Of a stretch of 38,342 nt of DNA, positions 22 to 38,342 are shown one piece after another. The notes under the pieces were generated by a model. The model did no database searches and had not been told where the DNA came from. It saw only the letters and a program-made list of their open reading frames with translations. The stretch is from IMG/VR virus record IMGVR_UViG_3300037502_001123, positions 1 to 38,342 of that record. One strand, given 5' to 3'. This DNA comes from a virus. Position 1 is the stretch's first letter. Each line of letters starts with the position of its first letter. The position numbers and the translations under genes were made by a program.

Positions 22-275
22 CAGCTTGGACCCCGCTCAACAAGGGCGACAAGCGTCCGCAGGGGCGCGTGCTGGTGACGTTCGACGCCAGCACGAAGGC
101 GGAGAAGAAGCTGTACGCCGCCATCTTTGGATTTGAGCAACAGCCCGACTGGAGCGTTGGGGTGGCTTACTGGAGCCCAGAGATCAGGAAGTGGATGACT
201 GGCCGCGGCAGCATCGAGAACGTCATCGCCTGGGCGCCGCTGCCAGAACCGTATGAGGTGAAAGACAATGGTTGA
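18..275 (+). CDS. DUF551-like small protein
   Basis: This 85-residue protein starts at a GTG that overlaps the preceding stop, with GGAGG just upstream at positions 8-12. The layout resembles DUF551 phage proteins: an N-terminal W-x-P segment, a central VLVTF strand, a Trp-rich middle and a C-terminal IAWAPLPEPYE that matches the W-x-PLPEPP signature of the family. DUF551 proteins are common in early regions of temperate phages, and I know of no assigned reaction. A second copy with one amino-acid change (K82 to Q) lies at 37974-38231 because of the contig overlap. Confidence 0.75.
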   Translation: MTAWTPLNKGDKRPQGRVLVTFDASTKAEKKLYAAIFGFEQQPDWSVGVAYWSPEIRKWMTGRGSIENVIAWAPLPEPYEVKDNG

Positions 276-555
276 CTTCCAACGAGGCGACGAACTGACG
301 GTCGATGACATCCTCGACGAGCGCGCCGCCACCTACGGCGCGTTCATGGATGCGGCTGCGTTGGCAGTGGCCCTGCGTGCCGTCATCCGCGATCGGCGCC
401 CTGATCTGTTTCCTGATCAGGACGAGGCGCTGAACATGATCTGCAGCAAGATTGCTCGCATTGTGAATGGTGACCCCAACCACATCGACAGTTGGCGGGA
501 CATCGCCGGCTATGCGCAGCTGGTTGTGGACCGGCTGGAAGGGCGAAGCCGGTGA
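268..555 (+). CDS. DUF6378-like phage protein
   Basis: This is a 95-residue soluble, mostly helical protein. The conserved features I recognise are ERAATYG near residues 15-21, QDEALNMICSKIARIVNGDP near residues 51-70, and SWRDIAGYAQLVV near residues 74-86, which match the DUF6378 family of phage proteins. The family has no established activity known to me. The ATG overlaps the stop of the upstream gene by 8 bases and its own stop overlaps the next start, so it is translationally coupled within the early rightward operon. The truncated second copy at the right end differs at two residues (G7 to S, A29 to V). Confidence 0.75.
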   Translation: MVDFQRGDELTVDDILDERAATYGAFMDAAALAVALRAVIRDRRPDLFPDQDEALNMICSKIARIVNGDPNHIDSWRDIAGYAQLVVDRLEGRSR

Positions 556-1235
556 TGATCCACTATCACGGCACACCGATCACGCCTATAGCGCGGCTTT
601 ATGAGCTCGCCGGTGCTCATTTTTGTGTGTCGTACATGGCGCCCTCTCAAGTTCGCCACTGCCACGAAGTAGGGCAGTCCGTTATGCTGGACAACGGAGC
701 CTTTTCAGTGTGGCGGCGGGGCGCTGTGCCGGACTGGAATGGTTATTACAAATGGGCAGATGAGTGGCTTGATTGCCCAACTACTTGGGCCATCATTCCT
801 GATGTTGTTGAGGCCGGAGAAGAAGAGCAGGACGCACTGATTGCAGAGTGGCCGCACGGACTTCGCGGCGCGCCCGTCTGGCACTTGCACGAAAGCTTTG
901 ACCGCCTGCTTCGTCTGATCGACGAGTGGCCGAAGGTGTGCATGGGGTCAAGCGCCGAGTATGCCGTCCCGCTGTCTGCCCCGTGGCGGCGACGCATGGA
1001 TCAGGCGTGGAACGCTATTGCGCAAACTCATGCCCGCACGCCGTGGGTTCATATGCTGCGTGGCATGGCTTGCAGCGGAGAGCGTTGGCCGTTTGCGTCG
1101 GTAGACAGCACTGACATCGCGCGTAATCACAATCGTCCACAGAACACGCCGAAAGCCATGCGTGAACGGTGGGATGCTGTGCAATGCCCCGCGCGCTGGA
1201 AATTCACCCCTGAACAAATGGAGTTGATCGCTTGA
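555..1235 (+). CDS. dpdA: DpdA-like 7-deazaguanine DNA transglycosylase (TGT fold)
   Basis: The predicted 226-residue protein has the order of motifs expected of a compact tRNA-guanine-transglycosylase-type barrel. LDNGAFS (residues 45-51) corresponds to the TGT DSGGY loop with its acid-base Asp (D46). PVWHLHES (108-115) and CMGSSAEY (129-136) look like core strands. PWVHMLRGMA (163-172) resembles the HGxG loop, and SVDSTDIARNH (182-192) resembles the segment with the nucleophile Asp (D184). DpdA proteins swap guanine in DNA for a 7-deazaguanine. No Cys/His zinc site of the tRNA enzymes is seen, and the length is short for the family, which fits a phage DNA-acting form. The start is ATG 555, overlapping the upstream stop; GTG 552 is equally possible. 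The queuosine-precursor transporter directly downstream, coupled by TTGA, supports the assignment. Alternatives are an unassigned TGT-fold enzyme or a tRNA-acting enzyme. Confidence 0.7.
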   Translation: MIHYHGTPITPIARLYELAGAHFCVSYMAPSQVRHCHEVGQSVMLDNGAFSVWRRGAVPDWNGYYKWADEWLDCPTTWAIIPDVVEAGEEEQDALIAEWPHGLRGAPVWHLHESFDRLLRLIDEWPKVCMGSSAEYAVPLSAPWRRRMDQAWNAIAQTHARTPWVHMLRGMACSGERWPFASVDSTDIARNHNRPQNTPKAMRERWDAVQCPARWKFTPEQMELIA

Positions 1236-1759
1236 GGTATCTGGTTTTCGTTGCCTTCCTCGCCACGATCCCGGTCGCTAACTGGCTGATCGGCAACATT
1301 GGCACGACGTGCATTCCGAACGGACCTTGCCTTATCCCAGTGGCACCCGGCCTCATGGCCCCGTCTGGCGTCCTGATGATCGGTTTGGCGTTGGTCTTGC
1401 GCGATGCCGTCCAGCAGTTGCTTGGCATGCGCTGGACTATCATGGCGATCGCTGTTGGCGTTGTCTTGTCTGCCTTGGTTGCGCCACCTGCCTTGGTGTT
1501 GGCATCAGCTGCCGCATTCCTAATTGCGGAAAGCCTTGACCTCGCCGTTTACACGCCGCTACGCCGCCGCAACCTGCCGCTGGCTGTTTTAGCGTCTGGC
1601 GCGGTGGGAGCTCTTGCGGACAGTGCGGTCTTCCTGCTGATCGCGTTTGGCAATCTTGATTATCTCGCTGGGCAAGTGGTCGGCAAGATTTGGATGAGTG
1701 TTGCGGCTGCCGTCGTGTTGGCAGCGACTGCTTCTAGCGTGAGGTGGAGGCAGCAATGA
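1232..1759 (+). CDS. yhhQ: YhhQ/VUT-family queuosine precursor transporter
   Basis: The 175-residue protein is almost entirely hydrophobic with about six membrane segments. The RRRNLPLAVLASGAVGALAD stretch (residues 109-128), followed by VFLLIAFG and a C-terminal WMSVAAAVVLAAT segment, is typical of the YhhQ (vitamin-uptake-like) family. YhhQ imports preQ0/preQ1 into bacteria. It starts at TTG 1232, within the stop of the DpdA-like gene. The context indicates that the phage imports precursor into the infected cell for DNA modification rather than making it. None of the synthesis genes (folE, queC, queD, queE) are in the genome, so the substrate would be salvaged or taken from the host pathway. 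Confidence 0.8.
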   Translation: MRYLVFVAFLATIPVANWLIGNIGTTCIPNGPCLIPVAPGLMAPSGVLMIGLALVLRDAVQQLLGMRWTIMAIAVGVVLSALVAPPALVLASAAAFLIAESLDLAVYTPLRRRNLPLAVLASGAVGALADSAVFLLIAFGNLDYLAGQVVGKIWMSVAAAVVLAATASSVRWRQQ

Positions 1760-37507: not shown

Positions 37508-37977
37508 TGATCGTCGCTGGCGTGGATTGCGGCTTGACAGGCGCCGTCGCTTTTCTCGACGGCCCCAACCTTCTCACGGTCTTCGACCTGCCGACGATCG
37601 ACAAGCCACACAAGAATGGAAGCCGGGCTGAACTTAGCCCGGCACTCCTTCAGGACGAACTGATCGGAGACGTGAAGGTGAGCGTGGCATTCATCGAACA
37701 AGTTACCGCCAGCCCGCAGATGGGCACGGTGTCGGCGTTCCGGTTCGGCGAATGCTTCGGGCAGATCTGCGCCGTGTTTCAGTGCCTCGGGATACGCACA
37801 GAACTTGTGCGCCCGGCAACCTGGAAGAAGGCGATGGGGCTGAACTCCGACGCCGAGGTGTCGCGCGCCAAGGCCATCGAGCTCTGGCCCGACAGCAGCC
37901 ACTACTTCAAGCGCAAGATGGATCACAACCGAGCCGAGGCGGCGCTGTTGGCTGAGTATGGACGGAGGCAAGGGTGA
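37507..37977 (+). CDS. RuvC-like Holliday junction resolvase
   Basis: A 156-residue protein. GVDCGLTGA (D7) and the Glu in AFIEQV (E64) are followed by MGTVSAFRFGECFGQI and RPATWKK. The end MDHNRAEAALLAE carries D139 and E144, completing the RNase-H-like acidic set. It should cut branched DNA before packaging. It overlaps its neighbours at both ends. Confidence 0.85.
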   Translation: MIVAGVDCGLTGAVAFLDGPNLLTVFDLPTIDKPHKNGSRAELSPALLQDELIGDVKVSVAFIEQVTASPQMGTVSAFRFGECFGQICAVFQCLGIRTELVRPATWKKAMGLNSDAEVSRAKAIELWPDSSHYFKRKMDHNRAEAALLAEYGRRQG

Positions 37978-38231
37978 CAGCTTGGACCCCGCTCAACAAG
38001 GGCGACAAGCGTCCGCAGGGGCGCGTGCTGGTGACGTTCGACGCCAGCACGAAGGCGGAGAAGAAGCTGTACGCCGCCATCTTCGGCTTTGAGCAACAGC
38101 CCGACTGGAGCGTTGGGGTGGCTTACTGGAGCCCAGAGATCAGGAAGTGGATGACTGGCCGCGGCAGCATCGAGAACGTCATCGCCTGGGCGCCGCTGCC
38201 AGAACCGTATGAGGTGCAAGACAATGGTTGA
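37974..38231 (+). CDS. DUF551-like small protein (second copy from contig overlap)
   Basis: The same 85-residue protein as at 18-275 apart from residue 82, Gln in place of Lys. Two silent changes occur (38084, 38087). Biologically one gene per genome unit is expected. Confidence 0.8.
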   Translation: MTAWTPLNKGDKRPQGRVLVTFDASTKAEKKLYAAIFGFEQQPDWSVGVAYWSPEIRKWMTGRGSIENVIAWAPLPEPYEVQDNG

Positions 38232-38342
38232 TTTCCAACGAAGCGACGAACTGACGGTCGATGACATCCTCGACGAGCGCGCCGCCACCTACGGCGCGTT
38301 CATGGATGTGGCTGCGTTGGCAGTGGCCCTGCGTGCCGTCAT
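38224..38342 (+). CDS. DUF6378-like protein, 5' part (contig end)
   Basis: The first 39 codons of the DUF6378-like gene, cut by the contig end, with Ser at residue 7 and Val at residue 29 in place of Gly and Ala. The complete copy is at 268-555. Confidence 0.8.
   Translation, partial: MVDFQRSDELTVDDILDERAATYGAFMDVAALAVALRAV

Follow-up and report, generated by a model that had tools for sequence, protein, structure and literature searches.

A compact DpdA-like transglycosylase coupled to a YhhQ-type transporter homolog: a recurrent gene pair and probable salvage variant of phage DpdA systems

Phage DpdA enzymes, phages that encode DpdA only, phage-encoded YhhQ transporters, and YhhQ in bacterial dpd islands have all been described previously (PMC6884629, PMC8310023, PMC8651126, PMC11888242). 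Among the phages that encode DpdA only, Salmonella phage 7-11 belongs to group 3 of the Hutinet 2019 scheme, and Pantoea phage MED16 is a further case; both encode a compact DpdA and no preQ0 synthesis genes. Low levels of dADG have been measured in their virion DNA by LC-MS, amounting to 0.02% of G in 7-11 (PMC6884629) and 0.13% of G in MED16, a phage without synthesis genes (PMC8306585). The restriction resistance of MED16 was ascribed to m6dA, and its deazaguanine gave no noticeable resistance (PMC8306585). In the Seuratvirus and EC151 clusters, a phage DpdA is grouped with a preQ0 transporter and with FolE, QueD, QueE, and QueC (PMC8310023), and the archaeal viruses HCTV-1 and HCTV-16 carry a virus-encoded YhhQ plus a preQ0/G+ synthesis pathway (PMC8651126). 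Bacterial DpdA, a protein of about 400 residues, works with DpdB. YhhQ is present in approximately 9% of bacterial dpd islands (PMC11888242).

Here, we describe a locus in which a compact DpdA-like gene is joined to a gene for a small transporter homolog, within a window that is itself a complete virus record in IMG/VR (38,342 bases). Both open reading frames that had been proposed in a first-pass annotation of this DNA, together with the TTGA that they share, are borne out by the sequence (Table 1), and in the nearest relative (viral record L001) the two genes are arranged alike, ATGA taking the place of the window's TTGA. The enzyme is homologous to the compact DpdAs of 7-11 and MED16, and the record likewise has no preQ0 synthesis genes; it differs from those phages in the addition of an overlapping transporter gene, no compact transporter having been reported beside their DpdAs, and a search of the whole MED16 record did not recover one. 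Unlike the Seuratvirus and EC151 clusters, the window combines a compact-type enzyme with none of the four synthesis genes, and it shares a YhhQ-type gene with HCTV-1 and HCTV-16 but not their pathway. In contrast to bacterial DpdA, the pair adjoins no DpdB, QueC, or restriction genes. We regard the pair as a salvage-type variant, recurrent and made up of two genes, of the phage DpdA systems already known. As far as the papers searched show, what is new is the tight, recurrent pairing of compact DpdA with one transporter clade, the occurrence of the same clade in dpd islands, and a small QueF-L-like partner. Phage 7-deazaguanine enzymes were reportedly surveyed by Cui and colleagues in 2023, and part of this novelty may already be contained in that survey.

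Table 1. Coordinates of the module, its key codons, and associated features (window numbering unless a locus is named)
Feature	Coordinates	Strand	Basis or remark
DUF6378 gene, upstream operon neighbor	268..555	+	PF19905, 36.5 bits against a cut-off of 27.1
Compact DpdA/TGT-like transglycosylase (P0001), 226 aa, ATG to TGA	555..1235	+	PHROG_887; identity to MED16 DpdA; AF2; BFVD
D46 codon, motif LDNGAFS (TGT DSGGFQ-type), candidate catalytic/base-binding Asp	690..692	+	
D83 codon, motif IPDVV	801..803	+	Invariant in 74 homologs
D184 codon, motif SVDSTD, candidate nucleophile	1104..1106	+	Invariance; strand E182-185 of the model
GGAG, candidate ribosome-binding site of the transporter gene, 8 bases before TTG	1220..1223	+	Direct sequence reading
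TTGA start/stop overlap uniting the enzyme and transporter genes	1232..1235	+	Sequence; ORF calls
Compact YhhQ/VUT-type (PF02592, COG1738) queuosine-precursor transporter homolog (P0002), 175 aa, TTG start	1232..1759	+	
QueF-L-like protein of about 80 aa	L007:8678-8917, L019:7771-8001, L067:7768-8001, and 20 more		Alignment A3

The DUF6378 gene shares one nucleotide, position 555, with the enzyme gene that follows, and the enzyme-transporter pair is therefore probably co-transcribed with it. About 12 of the 122 loci have a DUF6378-like gene close to the enzyme. Comparison of the window with L001 gave JC-corrected dN and dS values of 0.056 and 1.40 for the enzyme and 0.087 and 1.75 for the transporter, corresponding to dN/dS ratios of approximately 0.04 and 0.05, respectively, and thus to strong purifying selection on both genes. 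A PAPS-reductase-like gene (phrog_424) occupies positions 1902-2738 of the window; in relatives, such a gene occasionally adjoins the compact enzyme, for instance directly upstream of it in the Microcystis phage Mae-JY30, and one lies close to the transporter in phage Aoka. It was considered as a third member of the module and excluded, because only some 9 of the 122 loci have a homolog near the enzyme and because the family occurs widely among phages. At the record ends, positions 1-386 repeat as 37957-38342 in direct orientation (386 bases, 6 mismatches), which probably means that the contig is circular or that strain variants have given it redundant ends.

The enzyme matches PHROG_887, named 'queuine tRNA-ribosyltransferase' (E = 2.2e-49), and shares 42% identity over 197 residues with the DpdA of MED16 and 33% identity with that of 7-11; a profile built from 74 homologs is aligned by hhalign to 9g DpdA, from an Enterobacteria phage (E = 6.7e-7). 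P0001 is therefore homologous in sequence to DpdAs of phages with modified DNA. Across the 74 aligned homologs, five residues never vary (D46, D83, H110, G131, and D184); among them are the two aspartates, D46 and D184, that the first-pass annotation had placed in TGT-like motifs. The same annotation had called the 226-residue length unusual for DpdA, a view that does not hold, since the DpdAs of 7-11 (234 aa) and MED16 (261 aa) and dozens of homologs (219-241 aa) are similarly small.

The AlphaFold (AF2) model of P0001 is a confident TIM barrel (pLDDT 94.8) in which the invariant residues sit at or just past the strand ends; D46 closes strand E42-46 and aligns with the SGAFS of 9g DpdA. A Foldseek search of BFVD returned 25 matches below 1e-3, many of them named phage queuine tRNA-ribosyltransferase. 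Taken with D46, D83, and D184, the AF2 and BFVD results describe a TGT-type (beta/alpha)8 fold carrying Asp motifs. The fold search of the PDB, by comparison, returned generic TIM barrels alone, with TGT absent among the top 50, and P0001 matches no Pfam or NCBIfam model. PF01702, the canonical TGT family, has no match in P0001 or anywhere in the record. Assignment as a canonical TGT was rejected, there being no match by Pfam, by PDB sequence, or by hhalign to six TGTs, and the C-terminal region of TGT is missing from P0001. Assignment as a bacterial DpdA (NF041059) was also rejected, given that no NCBIfam match was obtained and that the neighbors of the pair are not DpdB; the similarity to bacterial DpdA is remote and confined to one short motif. 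The expected TGT-fold match was thus found with phage DpdA/TGT families and in BFVD, but not with canonical TGT in profile-profile or PDB fold searches. With homology to phage DpdAs present and canonical TGT and PDB matches absent, P0001 groups with the phage DpdAs and is tied to TGT indirectly. This tie is supported by the published HHpred match between MED16 DpdA and a Thermotoga TGT (PMC8306585).

The second gene had been annotated as a YhhQ-type transporter, which agrees with the score of its product against PF02592 (Vut_1; 44.3 bits, cut-off 27.2). Against TIGR00697, the NCBI equivalog for queuosine precursor transporters, P0002 scores 34.7 bits, below the cut-off of 50.95, although all 52 aligned family members match this model at E <= 0.01 (best E = 2.8e-13). 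Since P0002 falls below that cut-off, we infer its substrate from genomic linkage: the association with dpd islands and with DpdA suggests import of preQ0/preQ1. The model of P0002 is a helical membrane-type protein (pLDDT 94.4); its fold similarity to ECF S-components in the PDB was weak and non-significant and was set aside. E. coli YhhQ (COG1738), a preQ0 transporter, belongs to the same PF02592/TIGR00697 family but is about 220 residues long, compared with about 175 in the phage/dpd clade, which is separate in the tree from canonical chromosomal YhhQ-type proteins. Within this clade, the transporters of dpd islands are nested with those of phages to the exclusion of canonical YhhQ (SH-aLRT 95).

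The compact DpdA family and this one transporter clade are tightly and recurrently linked, across numerous phages that are unrelated to one another. The transporter was present in 58 of 80 viral loci retrieved with the enzyme alone, and the enzyme in 67 of 76 viral loci retrieved with the transporter; coupled genes always lie on the same strand, and both gene orders occur. After dereplication, the transporter remained by far the commonest real neighbor of the enzyme (78 of 122 loci). The enzyme tree requires no fewer than 16 changes in whether the transporter is present and no fewer than 7 in gene order, from which it follows that the association is recurrent. When the first 8 kb of the window were compared with two phage isolates that carry the pair, Pseudanabaena phage Pam5 and Rhizobium phage RHph_N3_2, DNA-level similarity was restricted to the module, as would be expected of a moving cassette.

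The absence of folE, queC, queD, and queE from the record, already remarked upon in the first-pass annotation, was upheld by whole-record searches, which found no QueC, QueD, FolE, QueE (radical-SAM), QueF, canonical TGT, or mini-QueF-L. The record accordingly lacks the preQ0 synthesis cluster (FolE, QueD, QueE, QueC) of groups 1 and 2 of Hutinet 2019. Among 48 virus records, QueC or QueD occurred in none of the 37 with the transporter and in 4 of the 11 without it, a strong raw difference that is not significant in a kinship-corrected test with 4 independent pairs. This exclusivity is a trend only, because of that corrected result and because phage EC151 has both the transporter and the synthesis genes, as do the Seuratviruses (PMC8310023). 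On the host side, 39 of the 42 bacterial genomes with enzyme homologs contain a QueC match over the cut-off, some of these matches being partial, and import would therefore, in many hosts, supplement rather than replace the host supply.

Enzyme homologs that lack the transporter sometimes adjoin preQ0 synthesis genes instead, being found beside QueD-QueE-QueC in L078, QueE and a mini-QueD in L039, a mini-QueD in L046 and Caulobacter phage DMCA, and QueE in L177; others adjoin a QueF-L-like protein. In L078 and L207 (record G026), the genes form a phage operon QueD-QueE-QueC-compact DpdA in which QueC is just 182 residues long, and in DMCA a shortened QueD (PTPS) of 98 residues overlaps the enzyme gene (L159:5705-6001). 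The QueF-L-like protein, of about 80 residues, is a third conserved neighbor of the enzyme, present in 23 of 122 loci (39 loci altogether). Its top PDB match is the archaeosine synthase QueF-Like (5jyx/5k0p; E = 2.9e-5), with which its CP and HE motifs align, and C, Y, E, E, and H residues are invariant; judged from these sequence features, it is probably a miniature QueF-L. The window itself was searched for mini-QueF-L and has none. The logic of import instead of synthesis, as put forward in the first-pass annotation, is backed by the conserved pair, by the dpd-island transporters, and by the QueD/QueE/QueC or QueF-L-like partners.

The transporter subfamily is also associated with other TGT-like families. 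In phiLM21, there is a one-base overlap between its gene and a TGT-like phrog_1279 gene; in Aoka (an Arthrobacter phage) and GreaseLightnin (a Mycobacterium phage), a phrog_15826 gene deposited as 'DpdA-like' is close to the transporter gene or overlaps it. A YhhQ-type gene of a Fishburnevirus mycobacteriophage likewise overlaps a DpdA-like gene (L254, NC_051731.1, 3465-4626). The Fishburnevirus host, Mycobacterium smegmatis, reportedly lacks the preQ0 pathway, and supplying or withholding preQ0 should therefore switch Fishburnevirus DNA modification on or off. In bacteria, the compact transporter comes after DpdB-DpdA-DpdB-(QueE)-QueC, directly following QueC, in four dpd islands; two of these belong to an Ensifer genome and the others to Devosia and Microvirga, all three being Alphaproteobacteria; DpdA and DpdB score above the NCBI equivalog cut-offs in the island scanned. 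These alphaproteobacterial clusters, in which QueC and the compact transporter accompany a pair of DpdB genes, are located at L213:4441-9269 and in L214, L215, and L216.

We consider it probable that the enzyme and transporter together constitute a two-gene salvage module for the 7-deazaguanine modification of phage DNA. In the proposed mechanism, the 175-residue VUT/YhhQ-type protein would enter the host inner membrane and import external preQ0 and/or preQ1. The 226-residue single-domain DpdA-like TIM-barrel enzyme would then swap guanine for the imported base in a TGT-type reaction, a step proposed from homology and from the invariant residues; D46 and D83 would contribute to base binding, and D184 would serve as the nucleophile. 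The target would be the phage's own DNA; homology to DpdA and the dpd-island context both point to DNA rather than RNA or protein. The benefit, which is the weakest step of this scheme, is likely partial protection from restriction or from other DNA-targeting defence. The possible evasion of restriction suggested at first pass finds no support in the data for 7-11 and MED16, in which only traces of modified G were measured and the resistance of MED16 was ascribed to m6dA (PMC6884629, PMC8306585).

Such low levels of DNA modification in two phages with compact homologs (PMC6884629, PMC8306585) would also suit an enzyme that acts on RNA, that is, a stripped-down TGT that incorporates the imported 7-deazaguanine into tRNA of the host or the phage, or into other RNA, and so tunes translation during infection, with the transporter feeding it. 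The fold family is that of tRNA transglycosylases, PHROGs name the protein queuine tRNA-ribosyltransferase, and the partner QueF-L, recognized by its PDB match, works on preQ0-tRNA in archaea (PMC6884629). We nevertheless regard an RNA target as unlikely: the enzyme is without the C-terminal region of TGT, the relatives that sequence comparison identifies are DpdAs of phages (9g, MED16, and 7-11), the transporter subfamily is shared with DNA-modifying dpd islands, and other VUT-linked genes were called DpdA-like by their depositors. Moreover, a full-length canonical TGT match already exists in all 10 host genomes checked.

The trace amounts of dADG in 7-11 and MED16, to which no resistance was ascribed (PMC6884629, PMC8306585), could also reflect weak or vestigial metabolic cargo, in which host-made preQ0 is inserted at trace levels, the transporter mainly boosts the host's queuosine supply, and DNA modification brings no benefit; most bacterial genomes with homologs can make preQ0. 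The strong purifying selection on both genes, the invariance of the catalytic residues in 74 homologs, and the recurrent formation of such pairs from different TGT-like families render this distinctly unlikely. A role in protein-level counter-defence, with the enzyme removing or blocking 7-amido-7-deazaguanine on a defence protein in the manner of Cap10 (type IV CBASS) and the transporter being a coupled metabolic gene, draws on the finding that Cap10, an enzyme of the TGT family, has been remodelled in such a way that it binds a deazaguanylated protein (PMC11996544), which means that TGT-like folds can have protein targets. The importer and the QueD/QueE/QueC or QueF-L-like partners, however, indicate that free base is supplied and consumed, and the sequence links lead to DpdA; we find a Cap10-like function highly improbable. 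Modification of phage DNA with salvaged bases is thus the reading that we prefer.

More broadly, and tentatively, the small-transporter clade may have been recruited again and again to DNA 7-deazaguanine systems, in combination with at least four TGT-like families (the compact phrog_887 type, phrog_1279, phrog_15826, and bacterial DpdA), with phages modifying their DNA using imported bases. The tight and recurrent link between DpdA and the transporter makes import directly testable, and the transporter clade tied to compact DpdA is also that of the dpd islands seen here. Import may be the missing factor behind the low modification in 7-11 and MED16, and the need for it may explain why the DpdA-only phages tested show little or no modification, as media or hosts may not supply the base. 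Phages may therefore build chemically altered DNA from imported rather than self-made bases. If the broader view is true, bases imported from the environment would modify phage DNA even in hosts unable to make preQ0, and the chemical state of that DNA would depend on the surrounding microbes.
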